NCBI RefSeq assembly: GCF_036013525.1
Contig: NZ_CP107853.1
Location: 124,001 to 188,000 of the forward strand
Source: Nonomuraea sp. NBC_00507
GTDB lineage: Bacteria > Actinomycetota > Actinomycetes > Streptosporangiales > Streptosporangiaceae
Direction of reading: 5' to 3'
DNA: 64,000 bases
In this document: piece after piece, positions 23,099 to 28,053 of the stretch
Position numbering within the stretch: the stretch's first letter is position 1
Layout: every line of letters begins with the position of its first letter
The notes under the pieces: model-generated
Told to the model about the DNA's origin: nothing
Databases searched by the model: none
Seen by the model: only the letters and a program-made list of their open reading frames with translations
Program-made: the position numbers and the translations under genes

Positions 23099-23599
23099 AT
23101 GGACGACGTGGTCGACGCGATGCTCGGACAGTGGGCGTGCGCCCGGCCCGACGTCGACGTGTCCCCGCTGGGTGTGATCGGCCGGGTGTCGCGGGCGTCA
23201 CGGCTGCTGGAGCGGGGGGTCAAGGAGTTCCTGGCCGAGCACGGGCTGGAGGCGTGGGAGTTCGACATGCTGACCACGCTGCTCAGGAGCGGCGATGACG
23301 CCACCATGTGCATGAAGGACGTGTCGGCGGCCGCCATGATCAGCCCGGGCGCGCTCACCAACCGAATGGACCGCCTGGTGGAGCGCGGCCTGGTGGAGCG
23401 CCGGCCGGCGCCGGACAACCGCAGGATGACGCTGGTCACGCTGACGGACGAGGGGCGGCGGGTGGCCAACGACCTGCTGGAGCGGCACACGGCCAACGAG
23501 GACCACCTGCTGTCCGGGCTCTCCGCCCCCGACCGCGACGCCCTGGCCGGCCTTCTCCGCAAGCTCCTCCTCTCCCTCGGCGACACCGCACCCGTGTGA
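23099..23599 (+). CDS. MarR-family transcriptional regulator
   Basis: A 166-residue winged-helix regulator starting at ATG 23099. It shows LLERGVKEFLAEHGLEAWEF (helix 1-2), CMKDVSAAAMISPGALTNRM (recognition helix region), and LVERGLVERRPAPDNRRMTL with the DxRxxxV/L-type wing typical of MarR. It is transcribed away from the epimerase gene and lies 14 bp after the right operator-like box. It probably represses both itself and the epimerase gene; no ligand can be inferred. Confidence 0.9.
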   Translation: MDDVVDAMLGQWACARPDVDVSPLGVIGRVSRASRLLERGVKEFLAEHGLEAWEFDMLTTLLRSGDDATMCMKDVSAAAMISPGALTNRMDRLVERGLVERRPAPDNRRMTLVTLTDEGRRVANDLLERHTANEDHLLSGLSAPDRDALAGLLRKLLLSLGDTAPV

Positions 23600-23667
23600 C
23601 ATGGCCGCGCCCCGAGGTCGCGGGAGCCGTCTCGAGGGGTCTCGAGGGCGCGATAACGTCGTGTGAC

Positions 23668-24831
23668 GTGGACCTCGACGCGTTCAACGAGCTGCTGACG
23701 ACGCGCGGCCAACGGGCGCTGGCCGAGGCCGGTGAGCTCACCGGCGCGGACCCGGTCGCCGCCGCCACGAAGCTGCGCAAAACGTACGACGCCCCCCTCA
23801 CCTCGGCCGCGCTGACCCAGGCCGGCCTGCGAGAACGCGCCAAGGCCAAATTCGGCGAGGACGCCCGGGGGATGTACTTCACGCACCATGGCCTGGAGCA
23901 GTCCACACGGGCGGAGGTGGCGGAGCACCGCGCCCGCCGCCTGGCCGGGGCCTCGGTCGTCGACGCCTGCTGCGGCATCGGCGGCGACTTCCTGGCACTG
24001 GCCCGCGCCGGCTGCACGGTGACGGCCGTGGACATCGACCCCCTGACGGTCGCCGTGGCCAGAGCCAACGCCGAGGCGCTCGGGCTGGCCGACCGGGTGA
24101 CGGTGACCATTGGGGATGCGGCCGCCGTCCGGCCGGAGGACTACGACGTGCTGTTCGCCGACCCGGCACGGCGGACGAGCCGGGGCAGGACGTTCGACCC
24201 CCTGGCTTACTCGCCGCCCTGGCCCGTGGTGCTCGGCCTGGTCTCCAGGGCCGAGCGGGCCTGCCTCAAGGTCGCACCGGGCATCCCGTACGAGTTCATC
24301 CCGGCGCAGGCCGAGGCCGAGTGGGTCTCGTACAAGCGCGAGGTCAAGGAGGCCAGCCTCTGGACCGGGACCGGGGAGCGGCCGACCCGCCGCGCCACGC
24401 TGCTGCCCGGCGGTCACACCCTGACCTCCGCCGACGTCAGGGCCCCGGTCGGCGCGATGGGACGCTACATCTACGAGCCTGACGGCGCCGCCATCCGGGC
24501 TCACCTCGTGGGCGAAGTGGCTGAGCTGGTCGGCGGCCGCCTGCTCGATCCGCTGGTGGCGTACATCGCGGCCGACGAGCCGGTGGACACCCCATGGGCC
24601 TCGAGATACGAAGTCGAGGACATCATGCCGTTCTCGCTGAAAAAGCTACGTGCGGCCCTCCGTGAACGGCAAATTGGAAATGTCACCATCAAAAAACGCG
24701 CCTCCGCCCTCGACATCGAGCGCCTGCGCCAAGATCTGCGACTCAATGGGGAAAAGTCGGCAGTAATCATCTTGACGCGGATCATGGCGCGGCCATATGC
24801 CCTCATCTGCGACACCTCCCCACCTGCCTGA
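23668..24831 (+). CDS. Class I SAM-dependent methyltransferase with THUMP-like domain
   Basis: A 387-residue protein starting at GTG 23668 (no strong ribosome-binding site). The Rossmann methyltransferase core has motif I VVDACCGIGGDFLALA (97-112), the acidic VDID at 121-124, and DVLFADPARRTSRGRTFDP as motif IV with a DPAR instead of the DPPY of DNA methylases. The C-terminal quarter (DIMPFSLKKLRAALRERQIG, NVTIKKRASALD) is the THUMP-like module of actinobacterial RNA-methyltransferase-like proteins. An RNA substrate is the best guess. Length is normal for the family. Confidence 0.85.
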   Translation: MDLDAFNELLTTRGQRALAEAGELTGADPVAAATKLRKTYDAPLTSAALTQAGLRERAKAKFGEDARGMYFTHHGLEQSTRAEVAEHRARRLAGASVVDACCGIGGDFLALARAGCTVTAVDIDPLTVAVARANAEALGLADRVTVTIGDAAAVRPEDYDVLFADPARRTSRGRTFDPLAYSPPWPVVLGLVSRAERACLKVAPGIPYEFIPAQAEAEWVSYKREVKEASLWTGTGERPTRRATLLPGGHTLTSADVRAPVGAMGRYIYEPDGAAIRAHLVGEVAELVGGRLLDPLVAYIAADEPVDTPWASRYEVEDIMPFSLKKLRAALRERQIGNVTIKKRASALDIERLRQDLRLNGEKSAVIILTRIMARPYALICDTSPPA

Positions 24832-25027
24832 ACAGGGAAACCGGCCATTCTTGCGTTAACCGCGATCTTTCAATTTCAGCCCTGACGGACCTTGATCGAA
24901 AGGCTAAGGTGGACGGGCGGGAGTTCTCCCCCGAATGCGGTTACCCGCGTTCTCGCCTTTTCATCTGCAAACCGGACCTACCCCACCGCTGCGCGGCAGA
25001 CCGTCGGCGACGCGAAGGAGCCTTTCG

Positions 25028-26983
25028 GTGGACAATTCCAATCACACCACCCTTCTTCTTCAGGCAGGAGGCCACTCCCCCATCTCCGAAAGGATGCGCG
25101 ACCTGCTCCAGCGCGCCGCCCAGGATCACGTCTACGAGCAGCGCACGCAGGGCGCCGTGCTCGACGAGATCCGCCAGCGGCTCGAGGGCATGGAGTGGCT
25201 GCTTCGCGAGGTACGCGAGCGCGAGCTGGGCGGTCTGAGCGGCACCCTGGAGTCGGTCAACGGGCGGCTGGAGGACATCACCATCAAGCCGCCGATGTGG
25301 GCGGAGGGCCTGGCCCAGCACGTGGAGGCGGTGCGCGACCACGTCGACGCCGTCGACGAGCGCGTGGGCCAACGCCTGCAGTCCGTGCTCGACACCACCG
25401 ATGGCATCACCAAGGGCATGTCCGATTTCGCCACACTGCTGGCCGGCCTCAACGCCAGCATGGAAGCCGCCGCCAGCCGCTTCACCAGACTCGACAAGTC
25501 GGTGGCCGAGCTCGTCACTCGGACCGACCGGGTGGAGTCGGCGGTCGGCGCGCTGTCCGAGGACGTCAACGATCGGCTGGCCGGCGCGGTCGAGCAATTG
25601 GCCGGCAAGGTAGACGCGGCCGAGCAGCGCCTGACGACCCGCCTGGAGGCGACCGGCGAGCACCTGACCTCCCGGCTGGACGAGACCGACCAGAGCCTCA
25701 CCCTCAGGCTCGACGACACCCACCACCGCCTGACCACCAAACTGGACGAGGCCGACCGCCGCCTCACCACCAAGCTCGACGAGACCGACGAGCGGCTCAC
25801 GGCCCGGTTGGAGGAGAGCCACCGGCACCTGTCCGCCCGGCTCGAGGAGGCGGACCAGCAGCTGTCAGGCCGCCTCGACGCGGCGGACGAGCGGCTGTCC
25901 GGCCGGCTCGACGCGGCGGACGAGCGGCTCACCGCACGCCTCAAGGAGGCCGACGCGCAGCTCAACGACCGCCTGACCGACGTCGAGCAGCGCCTCACCA
26001 CCCGGCTCGACGAGACCGACCAGCACCTGGCCGTGCAGCTCGGCGAGAGCGAGCAACGCCTGGCCGTGCAACTCGGCGAGAGCGAGCAGCGCCTGACGGC
26101 CAGGCTCGACGGCGTGGACTCCAGGCTCGATCGGGTCGAGGGAAGGTTGCACGGGCTCGACACCAAGCTCACAGGGTTCGACACCAAGCTCACGGGGTTC
26201 GACACCAAGCTCACGGGGTTCGACGGCCGGCTGGAGTCCGCCGACGAGTGCCTGGCCGACATCGACGCCAGGCTCGACGGCCTCGACGGCAGGATGGGCG
26301 GCGTCGACAAGCGGCTCGGGGGCATGGACGGCCGGCTCGGCGCGGTGGACGAGCGGCTGGGCACCATGGACGGCCACCTGGGCAGGCACGATGACCGTTT
26401 CGACAGGCTCGACGTACGCATCGACACCCGCTTCACCGCGCTGGACGAGCGCGTGGCCGCCACCGACCAGCGCCTGGGCGAGACCGCCACGCGCAACGAG
26501 GGCCGCTTCAACCGGCTCGACAGCCAGATGGACGCCATGGACGAGCGGCTCAGCGAGGCCGAGGAGCACCTGAGCGACCGCTTCGACGCGATCGACGGCC
26601 ACCTCAGCGGGCTCGACACCCGCTTCAACGGCCTCGCCACCCACATGAACGGCCTGGCCACCCGCGCCGAGCAGGCCGGCGCTCATCTGGAGGCGGTGGA
26701 CGACCGCATCGAGGCCGTCAACCAGCGTGTGGGGCGGCTCCCCGCGGCCCTGGGCTCCGAGCTGCAGTCGCAGGCAGGCGAGCAGGCCGCACGCCTGGCC
26801 GCGGCCGCCGACACGCTGACCGACCTCGTCAGGTCCCGTCCCGACCGCGACGAGCTGGCCCAGACGGTCACCGGCATCGTCGAGCCCGCGGCCACCGACC
26901 TCACCAAGCGCCTGAGCGCCCTGGAGGAGACGATGCTGGTCCTGGCCGAGGCGCTGCTGCGCCCCAGCAGGTCCAAGGACTGA
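25028..26983 (+). CDS. Large repeat-built coiled-coil protein (hendecads then heptads), unrecognised
   Basis: A 651-residue, highly charged protein with no signal peptide or membrane segment. GTG 25028 follows AAGGAG by 8 nt. Residues 1-200 are helical (MRDLLQRAAQDHVYEQRTQG, IRQRLEGMEWLLREV). Residues 205-358 are 14 contiguous 11-residue units of the form RLDEADxRLTx. Residues 359-463 are 15 contiguous 7-residue units (KLTGFDT three times, then RLDGLDG types). Residues 464-542 mix 11- and 7-residue units, and 543-651 are a less regular helical end with LVRSRPDRDELAQTVTG. The pattern implies a long rod whose supercoil changes sense. No known family is recognised; a cytoskeletal, scaffold or chromosome-associated role is possible but unproven. 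Confidence 0.85.
   Translation: MDNSNHTTLLLQAGGHSPISERMRDLLQRAAQDHVYEQRTQGAVLDEIRQRLEGMEWLLREVRERELGGLSGTLESVNGRLEDITIKPPMWAEGLAQHVEAVRDHVDAVDERVGQRLQSVLDTTDGITKGMSDFATLLAGLNASMEAAASRFTRLDKSVAELVTRTDRVESAVGALSEDVNDRLAGAVEQLAGKVDAAEQRLTTRLEATGEHLTSRLDETDQSLTLRLDDTHHRLTTKLDEADRRLTTKLDETDERLTARLEESHRHLSARLEEADQQLSGRLDAADERLSGRLDAADERLTARLKEADAQLNDRLTDVEQRLTTRLDETDQHLAVQLGESEQRLAVQLGESEQRLTARLDGVDSRLDRVEGRLHGLDTKLTGFDTKLTGFDTKLTGFDGRLESADECLADIDARLDGLDGRMGGVDKRLGGMDGRLGAVDERLGTMDGHLGRHDDRFDRLDVRIDTRFTALDERVAATDQRLGETATRNEGRFNRLDSQMDAMDERLSEAEEHLSDRFDAIDGHLSGLDTRFNGLATHMNGLATRAEQAGAHLEAVDDRIEAVNQRVGRLPAALGSELQSQAGEQAARLAAAADTLTDLVRSRPDRDELAQTVTGIVEPAATDLTKRLSALEETMLVLAEALLRPSRSKD
25640..26653 (+). 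repeat. 33-bp and 21-bp coding tandem repeats
   Basis: Within the coiled-coil gene, 25640-26101 is made of 33-bp units (14 copies, diverged, some adjacent copies nearly identical) and 26102-26416 of 21-bp units (15 copies). The units encoding KLTGFDT at 26165-26227 are almost identical at DNA level, implying recent duplication. From 26417 to 26653 33- and 21-bp units alternate. Copy number may vary between strains. Confidence 0.85.
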
Positions 26984-27021: not shown

Positions 27022-28053
27022 TCAGACGTGGACCGTGGTGATCGGCAGGGAGGAGTCAGCCGGGATCTCCAGGCTCGACGGCGCGACACCGGCCACGACC
27101 AGGTCAGAGCCCAGCGCCGCGACCATGGCCCCGTTGTCGGTGCACAGCCCGGGACGGGGCACCCGCAGCCGCACTCCGGCCGCGTCGCACCGCTCCTGGG
27201 CCAGCGCCCGCAGCCGGGAGTTGGCCGCCACGCCGCCCCCGATCAGCAGGTCCGCCACGTCGTACTTCCGGCACGCCTGCAGCGCCTTGCGGGTCAGCAC
27301 GTCCACCACGGCCTCCTGGAAGGAGGCGGCCACGTCCGGCACGTGGATGGACGCGCCCGCCCTTTCGCGGGCCTCGATCCAGCGAGCCACGGCCGTCTTG
27401 AGCCCGGAGAAGGAGAAGTCGAGCGTGCCGTCGTCGATCTTGCCGCGCGGGAAGGCGATCGCCGTGCCGGAGCCCTCGCGGGCGGCCCGGTCGATGTGCG
27501 GGCCGCCGGGGAACGGCAGTCCCAGCACCCGCGCCACCTTGTCGAACGCCTCCCCGGCCGCGTCGTCCACGGTGGAACCGAGCGAGATCACGTCCTCGGC
27601 CACGTCAGGCACGAGCAGCAGCGACGAATGACCGCCGGAGACCAGCATGGCGATGCACGGCTTGGGCAGCGGGCCGTGCTCCAGCTGGTCGACGGCGACA
27701 TGGGCGGCCAGGTGGTTGACGCCGTAGAGCGGGACGCCGAGGCCGAACGCGTAGGATTTGGCCGCCGCGACCCCGACCAGCAGCGCGCCCGCCAGCCCAG
27801 GACCGGCCGTGACGGCGATGGCGTCGAGGTCGGTGAGCTTGAGCCCGGAGGCGGCCAGCGCGGCCTCCACGGTCGGCGTCATGGCTTCCAGATGGGCGCG
27901 GGAGGCGACCTCGGGCACCACGCCGCCGAACCTGGCGTGCTCCTCCATGCTGGAGGCAATGGTGTTGGCCAGCAGCGTGTGGCCCCTGACGATGCCGATG
28001 CCGGTCTCGTCACAGGACGTCTCGATGCCCAGGACCAGTGGTTCGTCAGCCAT
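27022..28053 (-). CDS. tsaD: tRNA N6-adenosine threonylcarbamoyltransferase TsaD
   Basis: Transfers the threonylcarbamoyl group to A37 of ANN-decoding tRNAs (t6A). The 343-residue protein has the ASKHA-fold start [13 protein letters not shown], the metal-binding HLAAH (H114, H118), [20 protein letters not shown], and [12 protein letters not shown]. It works with TsaB, TsaE and TsaC. Its 5' end overlaps the rimI 3' end by 8 bp, so tsaB-rimI-tsaD form one operon. Confidence 0.97.

Follow-up and report, generated by a model that had tools for sequence, protein, structure and literature searches.

A coiled-coil protein of 651 residues, encoded in the 64,000-nucleotide window of the Nonomuraea sp. 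NBC_00507 genome analyzed here (contig NZ_CP107853.1, forward-strand positions 124,001 to 188,000), belongs to a family in which the two ends of the chain are conserved and the rod between them, tiled from 11-residue (hendecad) and 7-residue (heptad) repeats, varies in block type, number, and order from one relative to the next. An earlier sequence-only reading of the gene had described a single rod in which hendecads give way to heptads at a joint at residue 359, and had named no actinobacterial family of this design. The change of repeat at residue 359 is the most frequent arrangement of a rod that keeps changing, and no conserved design, since the order and number of blocks vary among the 69 family proteins compared (68 fetched loci and the window gene).

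The two periodicities of the window protein are exact. Self-similarity at a lag of 11 over residues 205–358 gave z = 16.8, and at a lag of seven over residues 359–463 z = 11.9 (each against 300 shuffles). The strongly hydrophobic residues peaked at a period of 3.663 in residues 183–358, close to 11/3 (3.667), at 3.500 in residues 359–463, and at 3.55 in residues 464–560. A core rule followed 11-mers from residue 183 for 17 units, 16 of them before residue 359 and the last overlapping the heptads, and 7-mers from residue 359 for 15 units; the longest runs in 2000 shuffles were three and five, respectively. Dynamic-programming segmentation, with profiles made from the window’s own units, likewise returned 16 elevens from residue 183 followed by 15 sevens, and beyond residue 463 a tiling of 7, 11, gap, 7x2, 11, 7x3. 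The sequence-only reading had counted 14 hendecads at residues 205–358, which are indeed exact 11-residue units, the count being slightly low; its 15 heptads and the ordered mixture of 11 and 7 past residue 463 were recovered as described.

The core positions are equally regular. In the 14 elevens from residue 205, Leu occupies position 2 (a) and position 9 (h) of all 14, and position 5 (d) holds Ala, Thr, or Ser in 13/14 (Ala in 5/14). The sevens carry Leu, Met, or Phe at position 2 in 15/15 and Val, Leu, Phe, Met, or Ile at position 5 in 13/15. The 11-mer can be read as the 7-mer RLDxxDx extended by a four-residue RLTx, i.e., as a heptad with a stutter in each unit. Heptads are left-handed and hendecads nearly straight, a point of established theory that is restated in PMC9858780. 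Between residues 356 and 360 the core stripe keeps its usual spacing of four, so that nothing is broken at residue 359 and the register runs on; the special joint proposed there was not borne out, and a predicted single helix (residues 216–390) crosses the boundary.

A search of a large protein collection with the head (residues 1–110) gave 113 relatives at E <= 1e-3. Named relatives from this search and a second one include Nonomuraea, Streptosporangium, Sphaerisporangium, Acrocarpospora, Planobispora, Actinocorallia, Actinomadura, Actinoallomurus, and, in the second search only, Allonocardiopsis; the nearest named heads, at 87–88% identity, were from Nonomuraea. Of 200 genomes of the order, 187 contained a match to the head, a single one in all but one genome, which had two; elsewhere in the window’s own genome, two sequences matched the rod weakly (E 9e-11 and 1.2e-9). 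Family proteins ranged from 226 to 899 residues (the 248-residue L071 is cut by the contig end) and were named in databases as “hypothetical,” “chromosome segregation ATPase,” “Apolipoprotein A1/A4/E domain-containing,” or “t-SNARE coiled-coil.” When blocks were called by lag-7 and lag-11 similarity in 44-residue windows, with their order read beyond residue ~132, both block types were found in the rods of 49/69 proteins: 11-then-7 in 30, 11-7-11 in nine, 7-then-11 in six, and 11-7-11-7 and 7-11-7 in two each. Thirteen rods had only heptads and seven had neither type. Within the window’s genus, 14 of 21 proteins (window included) were 11-then-7, and the longest unbroken runs extended from 2 to 16 units for hendecads and from 2 to 15 for heptads, by a segmentation that uses the window’s own unit profiles and misses divergent units. 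The longest protein, L122 (899 residues), contains several near-identical coiled-coil units of ~60 residues (TQLEQRITDTAASLSQ...LTARLDEQRETLDETR), a recent tandem expansion.

The conserved parts of the family are the head, a second block at residues 144–170, and the tail LSALEETMLVLAEALLRP. The head is recognized by the motif DRMRxLLxRAxxDHVxEQR, with columns invariant or nearly so in a 46-sequence alignment, and the tail by LEETMLALAEALLRP, in which L629, L632, E633, E634, L637, L639, A640, E641, L643, R645, and P646 are invariant. In the second block A148, R151, F152, R154, D156, and L162 are invariant and M145, E146, R165, and E170 nearly so. The ratio of nonsynonymous to synonymous substitution rates (dN/dS) in four within-genus comparisons was 0.05–0.16 for the head; the corresponding rod values, which are rough and come from uncertain alignments, were 0.44–0.67 for the hendecads, 0.28–0.56 for the heptads, and 0.25–0.77 for residues 464–570. 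The ratio stayed below 1 for every block in all four comparisons. Unaligned residues numbered 11–26 in the hendecads, 7–14 in the heptads, 0–7 in residues 464–570, 1 in the head, and none in residues 571–651.

AlphaFold2, run on the window protein as a monomer with the 46-sequence alignment, predicted a mainly helical chain with breaks near residues 87–89, 121–126, 209–215, 391–401, 571–578, and 603–606. Confidence by the predicted local distance difference test (pLDDT) was 86–94 over residues 231–340, under 50 at residues 207–217, at the break of 209–215, and fell from 81 to 43 between residues 341 and 400, standing at 43 in residues 391–400 among the KLTGFDT heptads. A second model, of the 386-residue relative P0032, was likewise mainly helical. 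Most of the 11-residue units are predicted to be helical, the first ones more poorly, so that the non-helical outcome that would have spoken against the earlier reading did not arise. On a simple hydropathy scale no stretch looked like a membrane span (highest Kyte-Doolittle mean over 19 residues, 0.82). These results support the earlier description of a rod-like coiled coil in which two periodicities occur and neither an enzyme domain nor a membrane domain is visible.

Hits of the profile searches were scattered over unrelated coiled-coil models. Several models scored under their curated cut-offs: crescentin rod PF19220 (25.6 vs. 100 bits), SMC TIGR02168 (61.4 vs. 567.35 bits, with its best stretch in the coiled coil of residues 386–630), the NCBIfam models SpiroCoCo_N (53.9 vs. 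75 bits) and SpiroCoCo_C (47.6 vs. 125 bits), and a ZorA-like annotation; the crescentin-, SMC-, and ZorA-like annotations were rejected on that account. Five Pfam models formally exceeded theirs (Baculo_PEP_C, 59.6/38 bits; DUF1664, 50/34.6; Exonuc_VII_L, 42.3/35.9; NPV_P10, 39.5/29.8; and CC_BshC, 27.2/27), as did NCBIfam LA_3659 (53.9/36 bits). Because the five are unrelated and score on coiled-coil stretches of one protein, several of them overlapping, as is usual for repetitive coiled coils, they were judged to be cross-matches, as was LA_3659. DivIVA PF05103 was not among the 20 Pfam matches of the window protein, and a head-only Pfam search with 14 heads (54 residues) gave two models of domains of unknown function (DUFs) in one head each (best E 0.0037). 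Matches to phage tape-measure proteins in PHROGs (best such E 3.2e-8) were also judged to be coiled-coil resemblance, and a tape-measure identity was rejected because the gene has fixed chromosomal synteny. In the PDB, the whole protein matched reovirus sigma-1, a designed spike mimic, apolipoprotein A-IV, and a phage tail needle (E 1.7e-4 to 0.0034), and with the head profile designed single-chain coiled coils scored as low as E 1.7e-8, whereas no biological protein did better than 2.7e-4; both sets were read in the same way. The claim that no named family accounts for the protein survived the tests made.

We favor, at a probability of about one half, the view that this protein is a cytoplasmic coiled-coil rod that works much as FilP or intermediate filaments do, serving as a scaffold or as a subunit of a filament. 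This view is favored because the ends are conserved, the helical middle is variable, no membrane span or convincing catalytic domain was seen, the gene is dispensable, and there is one per genome. The core composition, Leu at both a and h and a small d residue, fits the rule for dimeric hendecads (PMC9858780). The rod would form a parallel coiled coil, most likely a dimer, whose specific work would fall to the conserved ends: the head may attach to a second rod or to a partner, and the C-terminal helix may do likewise or close the oligomer. The middle would be a spacing or elastic element in which exact 7/11 tiling matters little, and it may be remodeled by repeat gain, repeat loss, and four-residue (12-nt) changes. 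The protein would then be cytoplasmic, dimerize, and self-assemble, and it might help to set cell shape, polarity, or septation; filament formation by the family would be expected by analogy.

Several observations weigh against this proposal. Both AlphaFold models are monomers of low predicted template modeling score (pTM, 0.27 and 0.25), and at a pTM of 0.27 no claim is made on tertiary or quaternary structure. FilP and Scy are tied to polarity and division through a DivIVA-like motif, and a motif of this kind, GYDxxEVD-like, was present in 0/69 family proteins and in 0/16 of the distant relatives described below. The neighboring genes, encoding a methyltransferase, TsaD, and GroEL, give no pointer to cell shape, and the open-access literature searched held no report of filament formation, localization, or a phenotype for the family. 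At the C-terminal end, each of the four comparisons showed weaker constraint on residues 571–651 than on the head (dN/dS 0.13 in one and 0.37–0.48 in the others), and the exact tail pattern was absent from 9/69 family proteins, one of them truncated.

The main rival is a two-ended tether or ruler, a rod that does not polymerize and holds head-bound and tail-bound partners at a set distance, with its length tuned in each lineage. We regard it as possible, at odds well short of even. Ends that are conserved around a middle that is free suit such a device, as does the fairly constant length in another genus (g18), where 17 of 21 entries among the matches listed have open frames of 551–596 residues and the three proteins examined (L080, L104, and L116) have a C-terminal hendecad block missing from the window; Frankiales relatives, too, retain head and tail, with a rod that is shorter and a long extension of acidic character. 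A strict ruler would, however, forbid the spread of 520–698 residues among the 20 examined relatives of the window’s genus and lengths down to 226 residues elsewhere, and the tether has no known partner. Selection might instead act on the ends alone, the repeats between them growing and shrinking by slippage and unequal crossing-over as neutral filler with no geometric role. Adjacent units share up to 85% (33-nt hendecad units) and 95% (21-nt heptad units) of their DNA sequence, and it is on such neighboring repeats that slippage and unequal exchange would commonly act. Unit number and order vary even inside the genus, dN/dS rises as high as 0.67 in the repeat blocks and, in the mixed region, 0.77, and the gene has been lost in several lineages. 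Yet every hendecad keeps its core Leu, residues 183–570 contain no Pro, and dN/dS remains below 1 throughout, so that we consider neutral filler unlikely.

Least probable, in our judgment, is a protein of the apolipoprotein or late embryogenesis abundant (LEA) type, in which single amphipathic hendecad helices coat membranes or protect against drying. Apolipoprotein PF01442 was the best Pfam match (residues 200–357, E 4.2e-22), three relatives are named after that domain, and two solved apolipoprotein A-IV chains matched weakly (E 0.0023 and 0.0032). The PF01442 match was rejected, since its score fell under the model’s own cut-off (79.2 vs. 90 bits). Moreover, the units mostly present two large hydrophobic residues per 11, at the fixed positions a and h, and d is filled by a small one, a pattern that makes a narrow coiled-coil stripe and not a wide lipid face, and the register runs into a classical heptad block that has no obvious place in a lipid coat.

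The scaffold or filament proposal draws on comparison with known rods. In PMC9858780, the FilP rod consists of N-terminal heptads expanded by hendecads and Scy is almost all hendecads, and small core residues go with dimeric hendecads in both; PMC6599971 describes FilP as a protein of head, interrupted coiled-coil rod, and tail that forms filaments. The window protein shares with FilP and Scy an actinobacterial coiled-coil rod and hendecads with small core residues, and with FilP the joining of heptads to hendecads, although a small residue at d is common to many coiled coils and weak as a sign of membership. The Scy repeat was reportedly the subject of a study by Walshaw et al. in 2010. In contrast to FilP, with its N-terminal heptads, the window family is mostly 11 then 7, and its gene neighborhood is not that of FilP and Scy. 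In the window genome, separate DivIVA-like genes lie elsewhere, and two genes other than the coiled-coil gene carry the motif. By the motif test made, the window protein falls outside the DivIVA/FilP/Scy family, and it is not taken to be FilP because the motif is absent from all family proteins, the context differs, and other DivIVA-like genes are present. Judged by analogy, FilP is nonetheless the best functional analogue.

Intermediate-filament rods mix heptads and hendecads of differing superhelical pitch between a head and a tail (PMC7824274), a layout that the conserved ends and predicted helical rod of the window protein resemble. The window blocks differ in being longer and exactly repetitive, and no sequence relationship was seen (lamin A/C matched the head profile only at E 0.3 or worse). 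Peripheral stalks of rotary ATPases are hendecad coiled coils, in which subunit G shifts from hendecads to quindecads (PMC6131620). They resemble the window protein in their hendecads and in a periodicity that changes along the chain, and differ in being parts of membrane enzymes in an unrelated context. Mixed heptad/hendecad rods are thus already known, in FilP (PMC9858780) and in intermediate filaments (PMC7824274), and the view that such a design lacks precedent is not supported. What did not turn up in the open-access literature searched is the family, its end motifs, and the re-tiled rod.

If the protein assembles, the Streptosporangiales would own a nearly order-wide scaffold that was not found in that literature. 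Tentatively, and with the odds against it, the family might be an unrecognized actinobacterial cytoskeletal superfamily, independent of DivIVA/FilP/Scy, with fixed ends and a rod re-tiled with left-handed heptad and near-straight hendecad blocks, a change that could tune stiffness, pitch, or spacing and leave the interaction sites unchanged. The natural series of rods with the same ends (11-then-7, 7-then-11, only 7, and almost none) would, in the case of assembly, be a ready-made test of periodicity against filament mechanics, and the two end motifs provide a handle for annotating proteins now variously named in databases.

The family occupies a constant place in the chromosome (Table 1). A methyltransferase gene lies upstream on the same strand in 68/68 family loci, tsaD downstream on the opposite strand in 60/68, and GroEL on the opposite strand in 66/68; the convergent orientation of tsaD means that it shares no operon with the coiled-coil gene. 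Of the other eight loci, four end at a contig edge (L050, L071, L093, and L101), and in L102, L120, L123, and L124 roughly 2.9–4.3 kb fetched past the tail contained no tsaD. Flanks were fetched for the 13 genomes of the order with no head match, and tsaD was present in 13/13. Eight of these keep both the methyltransferase and tsaD with no head match between them, the two matches being ~50–120 bases apart in L176, L177, L179, L181, and L182 and separated by an unrelated-looking frame in L178, L183, and L184; L180 has a contig break and a tail match, and in L185–L188 the methyltransferase was not seen or the contig was short. Because both neighbors are kept without the gene in eight genomes, the coiled-coil gene is dispensable in several lineages and not essential there. 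By eye, the intervening frame of L183 and L184 resembles an aminoglycoside phosphotransferase.

Table 1. Coordinates of the coiled-coil gene, its parts, and its neighbors in the window
Feature	Position	Strand	Basis and remarks
SAM (S-adenosylmethionine) methyltransferase with THUMP-like domain, upstream neighbor	23593..24831	+	PF18096, 69.4 bits
Candidate promoter CTGACG-17 nt-TAAGGT	24882..24910	+	Conservation alone; leader of ~115 nt follows
Ribosome-binding site AAGGAG	25015..25020	+	7 nt before start; kept across genera
Coiled-coil gene, 651 aa + stop	25028..26983	+	GTG start, TGA stop; open reading frame list, translation
Head, residues 1–110; core 17–86 (SERMRDLLQRAAQDHVYEQR...EGMEWLLREVRERE), PPxWAE at 88–93	25028..25357	+	Alignment columns
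Second conserved block, residues 144–170 (SMEAAASRFTRLDKSVAELVTRTDRVE)	25457..25537	+	46-sequence alignment
Hendecad block, 16 units, residues 183–358	25574..26101	+	Self-similarity, segmentation, hydrophobic period, core rule
Heptad block, 15 units, residues 359–463	26102..26416	+	Self-similarity, segmentation, hydrophobic period, core rule
Mixed 7/11 region, residues 464–570	26417..26737	+	Self-similarity, segmentation
Tail, residues 604–651 (RPDRDELAQTV...LSALEETMLVLAEALLRPSR)	26837..26980	+	46-sequence alignment; position checked
TsaD, convergent with coiled-coil gene	27022..28053	-	PF00814, 310.4 bits

Relatives of a more distant kind were found beyond the order. When 394 genomes of the class were searched with a single sequence, 11 outside the order gave weak matches (E 3.8e-6 to 9e-4). 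In these 11 proteins (L105–L115) the head is joined by a tail of the DxAVxALAExL type, the rod is shorter, and a long acidic stretch closes the chain. The Frankiales-type head reads S[DE]RMQxLLSxAVEDQxxEQRQ and the tail DEAVLALAEALLRR (L105–L115 and L164–L166), the acidic C-terminal extension often ends in WWRPGD/G, and 21 of 24 named contigs with such a head bear the names of Frankiaceae or Frankiales metagenome-assembled genomes. A tail profile built from proteins of the order only was run on 1282 open frames from 16 loci (L105–L115 and L162–L166); its ten best hits all fell among the 16 head-bearing frames, at modest E values (8e-4 to 0.11), and the remaining six head-bearing frames were not among the better hits. 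Homology of these proteins with the family is likely because the two ends agree. They differ from it in a rod that is shorter and mostly less periodic, in the acidic extension, and in a locus that lies between a DUF gene (often Ku) and MoeZ and not between the methyltransferase and TsaD. In 14 Frankiales-type loci the DUF gene was found in 14, MoeZ in 13 (the fourteenth lies at a contig edge), and Ku in nine.

A more divergent version, with FDRMRNMLxRAAExxESEQQQ and LDEAMATFAELML, occurs in L162 and L163 (family f48 of the same class), and its relationship to the family, at E ~1e-6 to 1e-7, is tentative. The gene in L163 lies beside nucleoside-metabolism genes, the adjoining frames being ones that we take to be adenosine deaminase-like and thymidine phosphorylase-like. 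Since members of the family sit at different genomic locations, a role tied to TsaD is improbable. A phylum-wide search with the head profile matched 10 of 296 genomes besides the window’s own, with a best E of 3.9e-6; one of these ten belongs to the window’s class. In L167–L170, outside the class, one frame each matched the head profile (E 7e-7 to 1e-5), and the tail profile gave no match in these frames (best E 0.29); a motif screen of these four strongest found nothing convincing, the same screen having also missed L162 and L163.

The start of the window gene and the region before it were compared with those of its relatives. The relatives’ proteins begin at the same residue as the GTG-initiated window protein, which, together with the conserved AAGGAG, supports GTG as the correct start; a longer ATG frame from position 24935 is not matched by what the relatives show. 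An element CTANNGT, ~120 bases before the start, is kept across genera, and its C, T, and A and later G and T were each conserved in 90% or more of the 26 upstream regions aligned. Because of this conservation it suggests that the coiled-coil gene has its own promoter, and the promoter-like element is strongly conserved within the window’s genus. Contrary to the reading of CTGACG-17-TAAGGT as a promoter, a scan for the sigma-70 consensus found none. The leader of ~115 nt after TAAGGT (24882–25027) is strikingly conserved in the window’s genus and contains a small inverted repeat, GGGAGTTCTCCC; this strong conservation was seen in that genus only, and an Rfam search of the leader gave two matches, both far under the gathering score and neither convincing. 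Opposite the repeats, the minus strand holds an open frame of 509 codons (25132–26661), which is probably a by-product of high-GC repeated codons and no gene.

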